64,000 nt of DNA from positions 38,088 to 102,087 of the forward strand of contig DUKY01000012.1 of assembly GCA_013329055.1 (NCBI GenBank), read 5' to 3'. The position numbers were made by a program, and so were the translations under genes. This document shows, in pieces, positions 3,246 to 56,092 of the stretch (positions are counted from its first letter, which is position 1; every line of letters starts with the position of its first letter). Source of the stretch: Nanobdellota archaeon (GTDB lineage Archaea; Nanobdellota; Nanobdellia; Pacearchaeales; GW2011-AR1). A model generated the notes under the pieces. The model did no database searches and was not told where the DNA came from. It was given only the letters and a program-made list of their open reading frames with translations.

Positions 3246-3267
3246 TTATTTATTTTTTAATTTCACA

Positions 3268-3363
3268 ATTAAATTTTAGAGTAATTTCTTTGGCAATTCA
3301 GATATTCTAAAGGACGGGTTTGCGACGAAAAGTCGCATTTAGAGGGAATCCCTAAAATTTAAT
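3268..3363 (+). repeat. structured intergenic element, copy B (small hairpin module)
   Basis: ATTAAATTTTAG 3268-3279 / CTAAAATTTAAT 3352-3363 perfect 12-bp stem; internal TGCGAC-GAAAA-GTCGCA hairpin 3321-3337; shared motif TTTGGCAATTCAGATATTCTAAAGGACGGGT and GGGAATCC. Confidence 0.75.
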
Positions 3364-3423: not shown

Positions 3424-3744
3424 GGCTCTGTCCAGAGTTTTTGATTTTAGCTAACTTTTGGCAATTCAGGTATTCATTAAGGGCGAAATTATTGAACAGT
3501 GAGTAAATAAATTTATTAATAACAACTTTTCAATGATTGAGCAGGGTCTTCAAGCTTTAGCTTGAACTAGAAGCGAAAGTTTACATTTGCATTAAATTCT
3601 GAAAGTAAAATTAAAAAATCGCAAGTGTGGGCTTGAGTAGAAAGTTTACATTTGCATTAAATTCTGAAAGTAAAATTAAAAAATCGCAAGTGTGGGCTTG
3701 AGTGGGAATCCTAAAATCAAAAAAACTTAATTCAGGACAGAGCC
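3424..3744 (+). repeat. structured intergenic element, copy C (long, outer inverted repeat, tandem apical modules)
   Basis: GGCTCTGTCC 3424-3433 / GGACAGAGCC 3735-3744; TTTTTGATTTTAG 3438-3450 / CTAAAATCAAAAA 3711-3723; 65-bp perfect tandem repeat at 3575 and 3640. Confidence 0.8.
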
Positions 3745-11264: not shown

Positions 11265-11388
11265 TATTTTCACCTCTTTTAATTAATAAGTAAAATAAAT
11301 TAAGAATTATAAATATTTACTTTTTGCAAAACAATGAAGTTGGAGAATAATTTCGTGGTAGAAACAATAAAAAAAGCGTATTAATAAT

Positions 11389-11615
11389 AAGATTTTAACA
11401 AAGTAAACTAATTGAATTAACGTTGATTTAGTTTACTTTTGTCAAGAAACTTGCAAATGGGGTTTCTTGAGCACACACAAGAATTCATTCTCCTAAAAAT
11501 TCTTGGTGTTAGAGGATTATTTTATAATTCTCTATAGCTAAAAGGCAAATTATTACCTTTGTAATAATTTGGGGGATGAGGGAACACAAGATAATGGGGG
11601 AATCGTTAAAATCTT
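11389..11615 (+). repeat. structured intergenic element F: closed multi-hairpin region, candidate ncRNA
   Basis: AAGATTTTAAC 11389-11399 / GTTAAAATCTT 11605-11615; internal perfect stems 11400-11411/11428-11439, 11442-11450/11462-11470, 11478-11485/11498-11505, 11511-11518/11526-11533 (with G-U), 11547-11556/11561-11570; GGGGGAATC just before the 3' arm. Confidence 0.6.
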
Positions 11616-11714
11616 TGACACACTTTTTTCATCAAAAAAGTTTCATTTGAAATTATGAAAATGGGTGAGATAAAAATTAAAATTAAAAATTCAGAAGATT
11701 AATTAATTTAAAAA

Positions 11715-12485
11715 CTACTTTTTGCAAAAAATTACATAACGCTCGCTTCCAATCTCTTTGTCATCTAAAATTTTAAAATTATCTTTAATAAAATTAATTA
11801 TCCAATTTCTTTTAACATTAAATTTCTTTTTTGCAATCAAACTTTTTGTCGCAAAACTAACAACAACCTTATCAGCCAAATAAACAATTTCGTTTAATAA
11901 TTCTTTTGAATAATCTCTTTTTAACATTTCCAAAGAATCCAGTGTTTTAAACAAAAAAATAATTTTCTCCCCTTTTTCTTTTTTAATAATTTCAACAATT
12001 TTTTCTTTTTCAAATAAACTTTCATGAATAACTTTTGCAGGATAATTATTTTTAGCAAAATAATGATTTTGCAAATCAACTAATTGACCAACAGCTTCAA
12101 CACCAACATATTTTATCTTTGGATTTATCTTTTTAAATAAATCATAACTAAATCCGTTTATTCCGCAACCTAAATCAAGGATAGTTATTTTTTTCCCACT
12201 CCCTTTCAAAATTTTTTCATAAACTTCAGAATAAAAATCTAATCTTTCCTTTGTCGATAAATGCTTTCTTAAAAACCATTCTGGACTTTTCTCTTTAACA
12301 TTTAACAATTTGTCTGAAACAAAAGCAGTATACATTTTCCTTAATAAATCCCGAGTTAACTTAATCTTTTCTTCTTCAACATATTGATCTTTATCAAAAC
12401 TTTCAAAAACTAATTCCACATCTTTAATGGGTAAATAAGAAAATTCTTTTTTTTGCATAATTTTTTCAATAATTTCAGATTTCAT
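11715..12485 (-). CDS. class I SAM methyltransferase resembling ArmA/Rmt/FmrO 16S rRNA methyltransferases
   Basis: HLSTKERLDFYSEVYEKI...ITILDLGCGINGFSYDLF resembles the H-x-ST-x-ERL ... LDLGCGLNP arrangement of that family. Confidence 0.6.
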   Translation of the reverse strand: MKSEIIEKIMQKKEFSYLPIKDVELVFESFDKDQYVEEEKIKLTRDLLRKMYTAFVSDKLLNVKEKSPEWFLRKHLSTKERLDFYSEVYEKILKGSGKKITILDLGCGINGFSYDLFKKINPKIKYVGVEAVGQLVDLQNHYFAKNNYPAKVIHESLFEKEKIVEIIKKEKGEKIIFLFKTLDSLEMLKRDYSKELLNEIVYLADKVVVSFATKSLIAKKKFNVKRNWIINFIKDNFKILDDKEIGSERYVIFCKK

Positions 12486-13056: not shown

Positions 13057-13425
13057 ATGATACAAAAAATAAACATCTATAATACCCTTCAGTGTTTTGA
13101 GGGGGTTCAAAAGGAATCAGGGAATTTATTCCATGTGGCATTACAGAAGGCTCCGAAAGTTTACACTTGCATTAATTCCGAAGGTAAAATTAAAAAAAGC
13201 AAGTATGGGCTTGAGTTAAAAGATATCACCCTTCAATGTTTCGAGGAGGTTCAAAAACTTCAAAAGTATCGTCTTTTGAATGTCCCAGAGAATTTAACCC
13301 AAAATTCTCTGAAGGAACCAAGGGGGTTGCCCATTTTTTGGGGTATCACCCGAAGGCTCAAAAAAGATACCCCCCTTCAGAGTTTTGAGGAAGGGATCCT
13401 AAGGGAAACCAGGGGGTTGCCCTAG
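13057..13425 (+). repeat. repeat/hairpin-rich region upstream of the TGS GTPase, containing apical-module copy E (13155-13216)
   Basis: Three CTTCARNGTTTYGAGG repeats (13087, 13231, 13375), two GGAACCAAGGGGGTTGCCC-like repeats; perfect stems 13259-13266/13273-13280, 13286-13295/13302-13311, 13340-13347/13366-13373; the overlapping 122 aa ORF looks spurious. Confidence 0.6.
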
Positions 13426-18491: not shown

Positions 18492-19256
18492 TTAAGTACC
18501 TATTTCTACATAAACATAATATGCAGTAGCCCCTGAAAAACCAGGAGAACCATCCTCAGGAACAATCATCTGAAAATCATATTTTGAACCATCATATCCT
18601 GCCACATCTTCTTCTAAAATAGTAGCATAAACAGTATTTACTCCGTCACTTAAAGCCATTTCCTCGAAACTTGAATCTTGTGCTACATCATTTACATAAG
18701 TGTTTATTGTAGGACAAGTATTAGCAGGAATAGAAACAGCCCCAACCCAAAAAGTACTATGTGTTCCGGGAGCAGATGCATTGAAGGTCTTATTTAATTG
18801 ATCATTTGAATTATTATGATTCATTGCAATTGCTTCAGTGCTAAGATACGTTGCATTTGAACAATTAACACTTGCCCAAGTAATTGCACCAGATTGCCTT
18901 GTCGCATAAACTCTACCAGTAATTGTCGTAATACTCCAATCATAAATAGTAGAACCAGCTGAATCATCTAAGGTAAAACTACCTGTAACATTACCAACAA
19001 ATGCTTTCCATCGAGGATTTTGAATAGTCGCAGATAAATTGAAAGTAGAAACATATCCCCCAGAGATATTAAACATCTTTGCACTAACTGCATCCTTTGT
19101 CTCATTTGTAACACTAGTAATTGTATCAGGACCACCAGGGTTCGCTGCAAAAACTAAACCAAATGAAGTTAATGATAATAAAAAACCAATTAATATAAGA
19201 ACAACTAAAAGAATCTCCTTCTCTTTTTTTAATCTATTTTCAATATTTTTTTGCAT
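18492..19256 (-). CDS. secreted surface protein, family Q copy 1
   Basis: Signal/TM N-terminus; near-identical blocks with 43841..44632 (FNISGGYVSTFNLSATIQNPRWKAFVGNVTGSFTLDDS...). Confidence 0.8.
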   Translation of the reverse strand: MQKNIENRLKKEKEILLVVLILIGFLLSLTSFGLVFAANPGGPDTITSVTNETKDAVSAKMFNISGGYVSTFNLSATIQNPRWKAFVGNVTGSFTLDDSAGSTIYDWSITTITGRVYATRQSGAITWASVNCSNATYLSTEAIAMNHNNSNDQLNKTFNASAPGTHSTFWVGAVSIPANTCPTINTYVNDVAQDSSFEEMALSDGVNTVYATILEEDVAGYDGSKYDFQMIVPEDGSPGFSGATAYYVYVEIGT

Positions 19257-19336
19257 TTTTTTATACTCTTTCTTTTCTCATTCATCCTTTTCTTTTCCTC
19301 GTTTTAATAAAAATAAAAATAAAAAATAAAATAACC

Positions 19337-20056
19337 TTATTCTAGCTCTACATAAAAGTAGTACGGTCTAGTAGCAGTATCAGTTCCATGACCATCCTCT
19401 AAAACTAACATTTGGAAATCATGTGAAGCATCGTTAAAACCAAGCATATCTTCTTCTAAGATTGATGCAAAAATAGTTTCATTGCTTCCGCCTTTTAATA
19501 ATACCTCTTCAAATTCAGTATCAACACCAGCACCAGTATCTCCGTAAATTCTAGCTGACATACATGTATTAGTGTTAATCAAAATATTATTCACATAAAA
19601 CGCATCATGGTTTTGTAAATTGAATGTTTCATCAACACCATCAACATCATCACCAAGAATATTATATTCTAATTCTAAATTTGGAGTAAATGTTGTATTA
19701 TTGTAACATTGTGTTCCAACCCAATTAACTGAATTATTAACTGAAGCATAGATTTCACCCTCTGGACTTGCTAGTGACCAATTGTACATTACATTATCAC
19801 TTCCATCTGCTAATTGAATAGTACCTGTAATATTCCCAAAATAACCTTGCCAGCTCTGTGTTGTAGTAAAAGCAACAACAGTCATCTCAGTAACATTACC
19901 TGCAATTGCAGCATGACTTCCAGCAACATCAGCAGGAGCAGTAGCATTCGAAATGCTTGTAAGTGTACCACCTGATGGAACTACAGCATAAACAACAACC
20001 AAAGAGAGAACTAAAGCTAGAATTGGTAATAACAACAATCTATAAATCTTACTCAT
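19337..20056 (-). CDS. secreted surface protein, family P copy 1
   Basis: Signal peptide; blocks shared with 44693..45421 and 46214..46942; SD-like GGAGGG upstream on the minus strand. Confidence 0.82.
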   Translation of the reverse strand: MSKIYRLLLLPILALVLSLVVVYAVVPSGGTLTSISNATAPADVAGSHAAIAGNVTEMTVVAFTTTQSWQGYFGNITGTIQLADGSDNVMYNWSLASPEGEIYASVNNSVNWVGTQCYNNTTFTPNLELEYNILGDDVDGVDETFNLQNHDAFYVNNILINTNTCMSARIYGDTGAGVDTEFEEVLLKGGSNETIFASILEEDMLGFNDASHDFQMLVLEDGHGTDTATRPYYFYVELE

Positions 20057-42580: not shown

Positions 42581-43848
42581 TATCTTAAACCCCTTAATTT
42601 ATTTAGGTAAATTTTTCTTTCTTTCCTTATTTTATAAAAAAGGATAGATATTACCAAGATAAAACAAATATAAATAAAAGGCAAAAATAATTTGGAAATA
42701 AAATTCTTATCAGAAATCGCTTCTAAAATTGCACTTGATTCAAAAGTTTTTTTACCGCTATAATAAACTCTTCCGCTAATTACATATTGACCGGCTTTTT
42801 GCGGGGTAAAATAAAAATTAAATTTATCCACTTCATTTATACCAATATTTAATTTTTCACTTTCTAAAATTTGAACAATCCTGCCCCCTAAAGAAATTTT
42901 TCCTTTAAATTGAGCCTCAACTTCTTTTTCACCTTGATTTTTAAAATTAACAATAATAGTAGTTGTATCGCCTACATTCATTTTTCCGGGAGTTAAAATT
43001 CCTAAAAGCTCCCCCTTAACAGTTAAAGCACCTTCTTTTAAAATATCAAAAGTCAAAAGTTCATTTGAATAACATTCTAAAACAGAAACACTCGACCAAT
43101 ATTGACCCAAATCTAAACCTTTTGAATCTAATCTAAATTCGATATTCCCGTCTAAAGTCGGTAAAATTTCATTCGCAATTAATTCTTCAGTTTTTAATAT
43201 TTCAATTTGATCCTGATCCCAAATCTCAACTAAAACAGTAGGTTTTAATCGAACATTCCCGCTATTTAAAACATTCATTTTTAAAATAATATCATCACCT
43301 TCTTCAACAGAAAGAATATCAAAATCTTTAGCAGAACAACTTACTTCTTCAATATCAGTAACTTGAACTTTAATTGCCAAATCTAATGATGAAATTATTT
43401 TTCCAACAACCCCTTCACCAGATTCACCATCAAGACTGCTGGTTAATACTCTTAAAAAACCGGAATAATTTCCGTTCGGAATATCACTAGGAGGAGTCAC
43501 AGAAATTTTAAGATAATAAGGTTTATCTTTTGAAACAGTAATATTTTTTTTTGTGAAATTCAACCATTCAGCAATTTCACCTCTTGCACTTAATTCAAGA
43601 TTAATTAGATAATCAGTATCCGCAGAAATCACAGCAGTTTTTTCGGAATAACCATTTCTCATAACATTTTCAAAACTCATTTTTGCAGGACTTAAACCAA
43701 CATTCGCACAGGAAACAAAACTTAACATAAAAAGAAAATTAAATAAAATTACAATTAATAAAAAACCTTTTCTAAAATACACTTTTCTTACTTTTCTTTC
43801 TATCATTCGTTTTCCTCGCGAGTCCTTTTTAATATAAAACTTAATCAA
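42580..43848 (-). CDS. membrane-anchored surface protein with COG1470-like extracellular domains
   Basis: Signal peptide, beta-rich ectodomain, C-terminal TM (LFLPFIYICFILVISILFY). Confidence 0.65.
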   Translation of the reverse strand: MIKFYIKKDSRGKRMIERKVRKVYFRKGFLLIVILFNFLFMLSFVSCANVGLSPAKMSFENVMRNGYSEKTAVISADTDYLINLELSARGEIAEWLNFTKKNITVSKDKPYYLKISVTPPSDIPNGNYSGFLRVLTSSLDGESGEGVVGKIISSLDLAIKVQVTDIEEVSCSAKDFDILSVEEGDDIILKMNVLNSGNVRLKPTVLVEIWDQDQIEILKTEELIANEILPTLDGNIEFRLDSKGLDLGQYWSSVSVLECYSNELLTFDILKEGALTVKGELLGILTPGKMNVGDTTTIIVNFKNQGEKEVEAQFKGKISLGGRIVQILESEKLNIGINEVDKFNFYFTPQKAGQYVISGRVYYSGKKTFESSAILEAISDKNFISKLFLPFIYICFILVISILFYKIRKERKIYLNKLRGLR

Positions 43849-44632
43849 TTTCTATATAAGTATAATAAGCTGTTGAACTTGAAAAACCACTTGAACCATT
43901 TTCAGGAACAATCATTTGAAAATCATATTTTGATCCGTCATATCCTGTAATATCCTCTTCCATAATCGTAGCATAAACAGTATTTACTCCGTCACTTAAA
44001 GCCATCTCTTCAAAACTTGAATCTTGTGCTACATCATTGACGTAAGTATTTATTGTAGGACAAGTATTAGCAGGGATAAAGACAGAACCAACCCAAAGAG
44101 AATCATGGGTCCCGGATGCAGATGCATTAAAAGTTTTATTCAATTGATCATTAACATTATTATGGTACATCAAAGAAGCTTCAGTATTCAAATAAGTTGC
44201 ATTCGAACAATTAACACTTGCCCAAGTAATTGCACCAGACTGCCTTGTTGCATAAACCCTGCCTGTAATTGTTGCAATACTCCAGTCATAAATTGTTGCA
44301 CCTGTTGAATCATCTAAAGTGAAACTGCCTGTAACATTTCCAATAAACGCTTTCCATCTGGAATTTTGAACAGTTGAAGATAAATTAAAAGTTGAAAGAT
44401 ATCCTCCTGAAACATTAAACATTTTAGTTCCAACTGCAGACTTTGTTTCGTTTGTTACACTGGTAAGAGTATCAGAACCGCTTGGATTTGCAGCAAATAA
44501 AAAATTTAATGATAAAAATATCATTGTTATAACGATTAATATTAAACTTCCATTTACAAATATCTTAAGATTTCGTTTTTCAATATTTTGTTTAAATTTT
44601 TTTTCAATTTCCATCTTTTTTCGTGTTTTCAC
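43841..44632 (-). CDS. secreted surface protein, family Q copy 2
   Basis: Strongly similar to 18492..19256. Confidence 0.8.
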   Translation of the reverse strand: MKTRKKMEIEKKFKQNIEKRNLKIFVNGSLILIVITMIFLSLNFLFAANPSGSDTLTSVTNETKSAVGTKMFNVSGGYLSTFNLSSTVQNSRWKAFIGNVTGSFTLDDSTGATIYDWSIATITGRVYATRQSGAITWASVNCSNATYLNTEASLMYHNNVNDQLNKTFNASASGTHDSLWVGSVFIPANTCPTINTYVNDVAQDSSFEEMALSDGVNTVYATIMEEDITGYDGSKYDFQMIVPENGSSGFSSSTAYYTYIEID

Positions 44633-44692
44633 TTTACTTTTTTCCTTTCCGTTTTCCGCATAAAAAAATAAAAAATAAAAAATAAAATAGGC

Positions 44693-45421
44693 TTATTCTA
44701 GTTCAACAAAGAAATAATATGGTCTTGTTGAAGTGTCAGCATTATGACCGTCTTCTAAGACAATCATTTGAAAATCATGGCTAGCACTATCAAATCCAAG
44801 CATATTTTCTTCTAAGATTGACGCAAAAATAGTTTCATTGCTTCCGCCCTTTAGTAATACTTCTTCAAATTCCGCATTAACACCTGCACCGGTATCACCG
44901 TAAATTCTGGTAGACATGCATGTATTGGTGTTAATCAAAACATTATTCACATAAAATGCATCATGGTCTTGTAAACTAAATGTTTCATCAATACCATCCA
45001 CATCATTATTAGCAATATTATATTCCAATTCTAAATTTGAAGTAAATGTTGTATTATTGTAACATTGTGTTCCAACCCAATTAATTGAATTATTCACTGA
45101 AGCATAAATTTCACCTTCAGGACTTGCTAAAGACCAGTTATACATTACATTATCACTTCCATCAGCTAGTTGAACAGTACCAGTTACATTTCCAAAATAA
45201 CCTTGCCAAGTCTGAGTTGTAACAGTACTTGCTACACCCATTTCAGTCACATTACCTGCAATTGCAGAATGACTTCCGGCAACATCTAATGAACCTGTTT
45301 CATTGCTAATACTGGTTAACGATGCTCCTGAAGGAGAAATTGCTAAAACTAAACTTGGTAAAGCAAGAGTTACTAAAGATATAAATAAAATTAGAGAGAG
45401 TTTATTCATCTTTTTCATCAC
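44693..45421 (-). CDS. secreted surface protein, family P copy 2
   Basis: Strongly similar to 19337..20056 and 46214..46942. Confidence 0.82.
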   Translation of the reverse strand: MMKKMNKLSLILFISLVTLALPSLVLAISPSGASLTSISNETGSLDVAGSHSAIAGNVTEMGVASTVTTQTWQGYFGNVTGTVQLADGSDNVMYNWSLASPEGEIYASVNNSINWVGTQCYNNTTFTSNLELEYNIANNDVDGIDETFSLQDHDAFYVNNVLINTNTCMSTRIYGDTGAGVNAEFEEVLLKGGSNETIFASILEENMLGFDSASHDFQMIVLEDGHNADTSTRPYYFFVELE

Positions 45422-46031: not shown

Positions 46032-46213
46032 GATGTAAAAAATAACAATCGCTATTTAAATGTTTTGTTTAATTAATACATTAAGCAATTAAATTCTTTA
46101 TTTAAATTTATTTAAAAAAATCTTAAATTCTTAATTTTTATAAATTTAATAGAATAAGGAATTAAAGAGACTATTTAATTTAATACTAAATTAGTAAAGG
46201 GAATAAAGGAAGA

Positions 46214-46942
46214 TTATTGCAGTTCTACATAAAAGTAATAAGGCCTTGTAGCAGTATCAGTTCCATGACCATCTTCTAAAACTAACATTTGAAAATCATG
46301 TGAAGCATCGTTAAAACCAAGCATATCTTCTTCTAAGATTGATGCAAAAATAGTTTCATTGCTTCCACCCTTTAGTAATACTTCTTCAAATTCCTCGTTA
46401 ACTCCTGCACCAGTATCACCATAAATTCTTGTTGACATACAAGTATTAGTATTAATTAAAATATTATTCACATAAAATGCATCATGATCTTGCATATTAA
46501 ATGTTTCATCAATACCATCGACATCATCACTTAAGATATTATATTCCAATTCTAAATTTGAAGTAAATGTTGTATTATTATAACATTGTGTTCCAACCCA
46601 ATTAATAGAACTATTAACTGAAGCATAAATTTCACCCTCAGGACTTGCTAGTGACCAATTATACATTACATTATCACTTCCGTCAGCTAGTTGAAGAGTA
46701 CCTGAGACATTACCAAAATAACCTTGCCATGATTGAGTAGTAGAAAAACCTACAATATTTATCTCTGTAACATTTCCGGCAATAGCAGCAACACCCTGAG
46801 CAACATCAGCGGGAGCAGTAGAATTAGAAATGCTTGTAAGAGAACCTCCGGACGGAATTACAGCAAAAACAAACCCAAAATTTATCACAGATATCAAAAG
46901 AACAATTAAAAAAATATTTATTTTATTAAGTTTAAATTCCAT
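46214..46942 (-). CDS. secreted surface protein, family P copy 3
   Basis: Start re-chosen at ATG 46942 (MEFKLNKINIFLIVLL), preceded by GGTGA; strongly similar to P copies 1 and 2. Confidence 0.8.
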   Translation of the reverse strand: MEFKLNKINIFLIVLLISVINFGFVFAVIPSGGSLTSISNSTAPADVAQGVAAIAGNVTEINIVGFSTTQSWQGYFGNVSGTLQLADGSDNVMYNWSLASPEGEIYASVNSSINWVGTQCYNNTTFTSNLELEYNILSDDVDGIDETFNMQDHDAFYVNNILINTNTCMSTRIYGDTGAGVNEEFEEVLLKGGSNETIFASILEEDMLGFNDASHDFQMLVLEDGHGTDTATRPYYFYVELQ

Positions 46943-55826: not shown

Positions 55827-55881
55827 ATATACAATTATATATACTTATTTATAAATCTTTCTTTTTTTACTTTGTTCGAAG

Positions 55882-56036
55882 TTTGATTTTACTATCATTT
55901 GGGAGTTCAAATATTCTTAAGGGCGGGTCTTCAAGCTTTAGCTTGAACTAGAAGCGAAAGTTTACATTTGCATTAATCCCAAAGGTAAAATTGAAAAAAG
56001 CAAGTGTGGGCTTGAGTAGGGGAATCCAAAATCAAA
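55882..56036 (+). repeat. structured intergenic element, copy D (with apical module)
   Basis: TTTGATTTT 55882-55890 / AAAATCAAA 56028-56036; TTTGGGAGTTCAAATATTCTTAAGGGCGGGTC; module 55956-56017 shared with 3575/3640/13155; GGGGAATCC. Confidence 0.78.
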
Positions 56037-56092
56037 AAGATTTAATTTCGGGAAAAACTTTTTTTCAAAAAATAAAAATAAACTTTCACAGA

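Follow-up and report, generated by a model that had tools for sequence, protein, structure and literature searches.

BOX elements, Rickettsia palindromic elements and the nested palindromes of Volvox organelles are modular or nested palindromic repeats, and the elements described here resemble them in that respect, a likeness drawn from general descriptions and not from sequence. To our knowledge, a strict orientation relative to the replication strand and copies of tRNA 3' ends are not features of those repeats. The core site of integron attC follows the consensus RYYYAAC..GTTRRRY. IS608 uses the lagging-strand template, into which Y1 enzymes insert (PMC6006769); the same template is favoured for the bottom strands of integron attC sites (PMC5371416), and attC sites have been reported in Archaea too (PMC9668308).

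The modules of the locus studied here, F, resemble REP sequences, the ends of IS200/IS605 elements and attC in different respects, and each comparison fails at a defining feature that we tested. Like REP, REPIN and BIME sequences with their TnpA-REP (RAYT) enzymes, they are short, irregular, intergenic palindromes in many copies, composite and probably non-autonomous. Unlike them, they nest, keep a single orientation relative to replication, share an invariant TGGTA/GTG internal loop and have no Y1 transposase that we could find. The foot GT[AG]G of REP/RAYT systems is not that of the main hairpin module, T, which carries CGA at its 5' foot in 112 of 140 copies; GTAG-like sequence often occurs after its 3' foot.

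Architecture of the F locus and its modules

F lies on the forward strand of a window of 64,000 nucleotides from a Nanobdellota archaeon. The original prediction described 11389-11660 as a closed array of consecutive hairpins and a candidate novel non-coding RNA. Every stem it named is present and in place, and the array is real, but the actual unit is larger, at about 11344-11658. F is not a single RNA gene but a set of palindromic DNA modules nested one inside another, T[core[four hairpins]]: a T hairpin (11344-11658) encloses a core element (11369-11629), which encloses four more hairpins (11400-11534).

The left half of the T hairpin (11344-11365), delimited by sequence, the T alignment and covariation, comprises an AGA foot, the stem ATAATTTCG (11347-11355), the loop TGGTA (11356-11360) and the stem GAAAC (11361-11365). 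It pairs with the right half (11640-11658), which reads GTTTC, a decayed loop ATT, the stem TGAAATTAT and GA, and the rest of F occupies the loop of this outer hairpin. The left arms of the core (11369-11399), recognized from sequence and the core alignment, are an outer AAAAAAAGCGTAT, a bulge and an inner AAGATTTTAAC (11389-11399). Inserted hairpin 1 (12 bp, 11400-11439) is present in about eight core copies and absent from the others, hairpins 2 (9 bp, 11442-11470) and 3 (8 bp, 11476-11508) are missing from some copies that retain hairpins 1 and 4, and hairpin 4 (11510-11534) covaries among copies, for example TTAGAGAATT/AATTCTCTA versus TAGAAAAAATA/TATTTTTTCTA. The core interior (11538-11604), defined by the core alignment, contains CTAAAAGGC, a hairpin at 11547-11570 and the G-rich stretch GGGGGATGAGGG..GGGGGAATC; its inner helix covaries, and its motif is also retained in the core of a genome of another genus, G023. 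The right arms of the core (11605-11629) are GTTAAAATCTT followed by the outer CACACTTTTTT. F looks like a recombinant, since its outer arms do not match: the left one is of the GCGTAT subtype and the right one of the CACAC subtype. The sequence ACTTTTTT-CATC-AAAAAAGT (11622-11641), which the original prediction listed as following the array, is present but is best read as a module junction, where the core's outer stem abuts, with its right arm, the right part of the T hairpin. On either side of F stands ACTTTTTGCAAAA (11319-11331 and 11717-11729; p = 0.02). No tRNA genes were found in the window.

The segment 11380-11660 folds far better than chance, with a minimum free energy of -74.0 kcal/mol against -45.9 +/- 4.1 in 200 dinucleotide shuffles (z = -6.85). 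The complementary strand folds as well (z = -6.87 against dinucleotide shuffles), and because both strands of this DNA-level palindrome score alike, folding by itself favours neither.

Searches with pieces of F gave 39 matches in the source genome (1.19 Mb in 26 contigs, metagenome-assembled and 85 per cent complete), and reading these matches reveals the hierarchy of modules. The four-hairpin block proved to be inserted into the core, of which copies lacking the block exist too, and this bears out the earlier view of F as belonging, in diverged or elaborated form, to a family. The genome holds about 29 core and 29 T matches, and the copies are mosaics with hairpins added or absent. T has the layout CGA-stem-CG-TGGTA-stem-loop-stem-GTG-CG-stem-GAG, and its loop can house a core. 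The core consists of two stacked stems with a bulge, followed by CTTAAAGGC, a hairpin and a G-rich stretch. Within the core, the four-hairpin block can follow the left arm, and a T hairpin can follow the core's own hairpin. Junctions occur both empty and filled: TTTGGGG^ is empty in 16 copies and filled with T in 9, the T-loop junction GATA^ or AATA^ is empty in 10 and filled with a core in 6, and at TTTAAC^ many cores are empty and about eight carry the four-hairpin block.

The repertoire to which F belongs recurs elsewhere on the same strand of the window, as A-type elements at approximately 2230-2300 and 3262-3360, at approximately 3440-3730 with two tandem 65-bp INS units (3544-3704, 98 per cent alike), and at 55880-56045 with one INS unit (55954-56018). 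A further INS unit (13155-13219) lies among P13-type palindromic repeats at about 13057-13425. The 122-aa open reading frame listed at 13057-13425 is probably not a gene, because its DNA consists of these P13 and INS repeats. Elsewhere in the window, paralogous genes for secreted-looking proteins (18492-20056, 43848-44980 and 46182-46501) are 82-88 per cent alike in DNA over 300-bp stretches.

Orientation, folding and structural conservation

Orientation was measured against third-codon-position GC skew on contigs C13, C14, C18, C19 and C21 of the source genome. The sign of the skew is stable over long distances, including regions in which the majority of genes run the opposite way. Leading strands are assumed to be G-rich, as they are in general, and on this basis we name the lagging strand; the majority gene strand is consistent with this assignment. 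In 49 of 53 repeat clusters on these five contigs, which are up to 177 kb long, the sense strand lies on the G-poor, inferred lagging strand. All 53 lie outside genes of 100 codons or more, and the strands of flanking genes are mixed. Three of the four exceptions sit directly 3' of tRNA genes. Among T clusters away from tRNAs and with a clear skew, the sense strand is on the lagging strand in 14 of 14 cases in the source genome (p = 1.2e-4) and in 39 of 46 in other genomes (p = 1.8e-6), or 53 of 60 altogether, whereas the gene upstream of T clusters away from tRNAs shares their strand in 43 cases and runs opposite to them in 46. The tRNA-linked T copies do not obey the strand rule. The long-loop T copies of the source genome were considered as breaches of it and rejected as such, being tRNA-linked.

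Covariation, which the original prediction had named as a check, is present in both core and T. Among 19 cores, both partners have changed in 9 of 29 pairs, and these two-sided changes occupy 46 cells, compared with 16.9 in shuffles. In the G023 core the stems differ, yet CTTAAAGGC, the G-rich stretch and AAAATTCA are retained. For T, 12 of 14 pairs are altered on both sides among 66 copies from eight genomes (covariation score 0.493 versus 0.239 in shuffles), and the 96 copies found in contigs by a DNA pattern score 0.312 versus 0.173. The internal loop varies little: TGGTA occurs in 132 and GTG in 121 of 140 distinct copies, figures partly imposed by the search pattern, and in the source genome, before the pattern was used, in 22 and 20 of 22 copies, respectively. 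Because the stems covary, selection probably acts on a folded single strand, DNA or RNA. The retention of internal loops across several genera could also mean a host function.

Wobble pairs bear on which strand folds. Away from tRNAs, T stems contain 58 G.T and 11 A.C combinations, in a count that is uncorrected for kinship, excludes the one pair with a wobble as its consensus and may be affected by a preference of the pattern or model for some pairs; core stems contain 14 and 10. Because G.T exceeds A.C, while mutation in the direction of the skew predicts the reverse, the sense strand of T is probably the strand that folds. If it is, the nascent lagging strand or an RNA intermediate would be weakly favoured over the lagging-strand template as the folding substrate.

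Copies linked to tRNA genes and distribution

T copies are concentrated behind tRNA genes: 25 of 162 follow a tRNA of the same strand at a distance of no more than 300 nt, against an expectation of 1.05, and 2 lie downstream in the opposite orientation. In most tRNA-linked copies, a duplicate of the 3' end of that tRNA starts a few nucleotides past T, and in 17 of the 25 this copy of the tRNA end outscores the downstream sequence of every other T. The T-loop-like motif TTCGA directly precedes T in 12 of 25 tRNA-linked copies versus 4 of 137 others. Because TTCGA precedes T and the copied tRNA 3' end comes after it, T often lies in the loop of a duplicated T-arm, a placement that repeats the nesting rule of the modules. 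In two genomes (G013 and G015), T stands behind the 3' end of apparently one and the same protein gene, and the gene end is copied behind T. At L106:2416-2470 and L122:8093-8147, in two genomes, T follows the 3' end of what is apparently the same protein gene (ending ..FTWHGGEAP..), with 34-38 bp of the gene end copied behind T. At L114:1910-1963, T is antisense to a tRNA-Glu gene and stands on its 5' side; the segment duplicated behind T there is 33 bp from the 5' half of the tRNA.

Most or all of the genomes compared are metagenome-assembled. The structure model of T (R2) is present in 8 of 57 genomes, namely the source genome and seven from its family, and its copy number is patchy, from 0 to 29 per genome. 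The core model (R1) was found only in the source genome and G023. A DNA search of the 57 genomes with the whole of F returned a single, chance-level match outside the source genome; other genera were reached by the structure models only. The F block itself was found in no other genome. In a collection of 85,462 species, 83 stretches fitted the T DNA pattern. They come from about 29 named assemblies, every one of which carries the label Pacearchaeota, Nanoarchaeota, Woesearchaeota or plain 'archaeon'. Viral contigs gave no match to the T pattern or to a core-hairpin pattern, and a species-specific T pattern had no match in the genome and viral collections. Tandem T hairpins with 58-61 bp spacing occur in Nanoarchaeota-labelled assemblies (L142:1236-1480, L134:7612-7727, L175:3041-3217, L201:314-431 and L189:22-137). 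No Rfam covariance model matches F (best, Qrr, E = 2.5), and neither Rfam nor a limited literature search yielded a description of such elements in these archaea.

Competing explanations and a possible mode of spread

We consider it somewhat probable, at about 0.55, that F is built of non-autonomous mobile palindromic modules, nested in one another, which spread through a strand-specific process tied to replication. Each main module is a hairpin whose unpaired bases are conserved and whose stems covary. Other hairpins accommodate modules in their loops or at their feet, as the empty and filled copies show, and intergenic regions thus fill like Russian dolls. The sense strand lies on the lagging strand, as its correlation with GC skew shows. 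Most likely, a recombinase or the machinery of replication and repair would join the folded single strand of a module into DNA at the fork. A second class of copies lies directly 3' of tRNA genes, and behind most of these the tRNA 3' end is repeated. The mobility of the modules is itself something that we infer, and the search for a mover yielded neither a Y1 transposase nor an intact integrase in the source genome. Target-site duplication is not general: direct repeats exceed the 95 per cent null around 5 of 46 clusters, too few for such a claim. A 22-bp direct repeat with one mismatch, ATAAATGTACTTTTTTAAACGA, brackets the source-genome cluster G000:C19:10685-10892 and is the best candidate target duplication.

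A more specific version of this mode of spread is doubtful. The modules would be parasites of Pacearchaeota without a dedicated transposase, whose folded sense strand, nascent lagging DNA or RNA, would be captured into the lagging strand at forks and into existing hairpin loops, copied tRNA T-arms included.

It is unlikely that F and its relatives are transcribed structured RNAs, either small RNAs or cis-regulatory elements, with the modules as RNA domains. Stems that covary around invariant loops, wobbles that favour the sense strand, and the preference of tRNA-linked copies for the strand of the tRNA (25 versus 2) are all consistent with RNA. However, orientation away from tRNAs tracks replication rather than neighbouring genes, and the copies are modular mosaics that lose or gain hairpins; on these grounds, the non-coding RNA proposed originally is not supported as stated. 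That the F block was found in no other genome and that no Rfam family matches also argue against RNA.

REP-like palindromes moved on the lagging-strand template by a Y1 HUH transposase, of the IS200/IS605 or RAYT type, are a distinctly improbable source of the pattern, even though irregular intergenic hairpins, lagging-strand orientation and insertion without general target duplication speak for them; hairpins, this orientation and the lack of general duplication are also common to IS200/IS605. The Y1 transposase domain PF01797 is absent from the source genome (an 85 per cent complete assembly), as is tnpA, and Y1 genes do not correlate with T, being present in 3 of 8 T-bearing genomes versus 18 of 49 others. 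The F units are stacks of 50-300 bp, unlike IS200/IS605 elements. The orientation of the elements agrees with one-orientation insertion into the lagging template, but the wobbles suggest that the sense strand folds, whereas the template would expose the other strand.

T could instead be a folded single-strand recombination site like attC, acted on by a tyrosine recombinase such as XerA, with the tRNA-linked copies as integration products; this we regard as very unlikely. As for attC, a folded strand with unpaired bases seems to be what is recognized, and orientation relative to replication matters; T keeps an asymmetric internal loop while its stems vary. The placement of copies between a tRNA and its duplicated 3' end, often after TTCGA, would suit integration, and tyrosine recombinases occur in 50 of 57 genomes, although many of those in relatives are, from their length and ubiquity, probably housekeeping XerA. 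Against this, the R''/R' boxes RYYYAAC/GTTRRRY are absent from the T consensus; of the core types, ATTTAAC..GTTAAAT fits by letters only and TTTTAAC does not fit. Unlike integrons, F has no gene cassettes, tRNA and copy enclose units of only about 100-250 bp, and most T copies have no nearby tRNA. The sole tyrosine-recombinase match in the incomplete source genome is an 86-codon C-terminal integrase fragment with a stop (G000:C15:9564-9767), and no intact integrase was found there.

Polar host signals for replication or segregation, held on the lagging strand by selection, would account for the very strict orientation over contigs of up to 177 kb but are highly improbable, as T has a sporadic presence and very different copy numbers among genomes, tRNA-linked copies escape the orientation rule, and signals would not be expected to nest or to form tandem arrays.

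Palindromes that heed replication rather than gene direction, nest within one another and stand behind tRNAs would represent a testable form of strand-specific DNA mobility in the largely uncultured DPANN archaea. The T signature, an invariant internal loop with covarying stems, is precise and searchable and has been found in this archaeal group only; therefore, both the mover and the distribution of these elements can be pursued directly.
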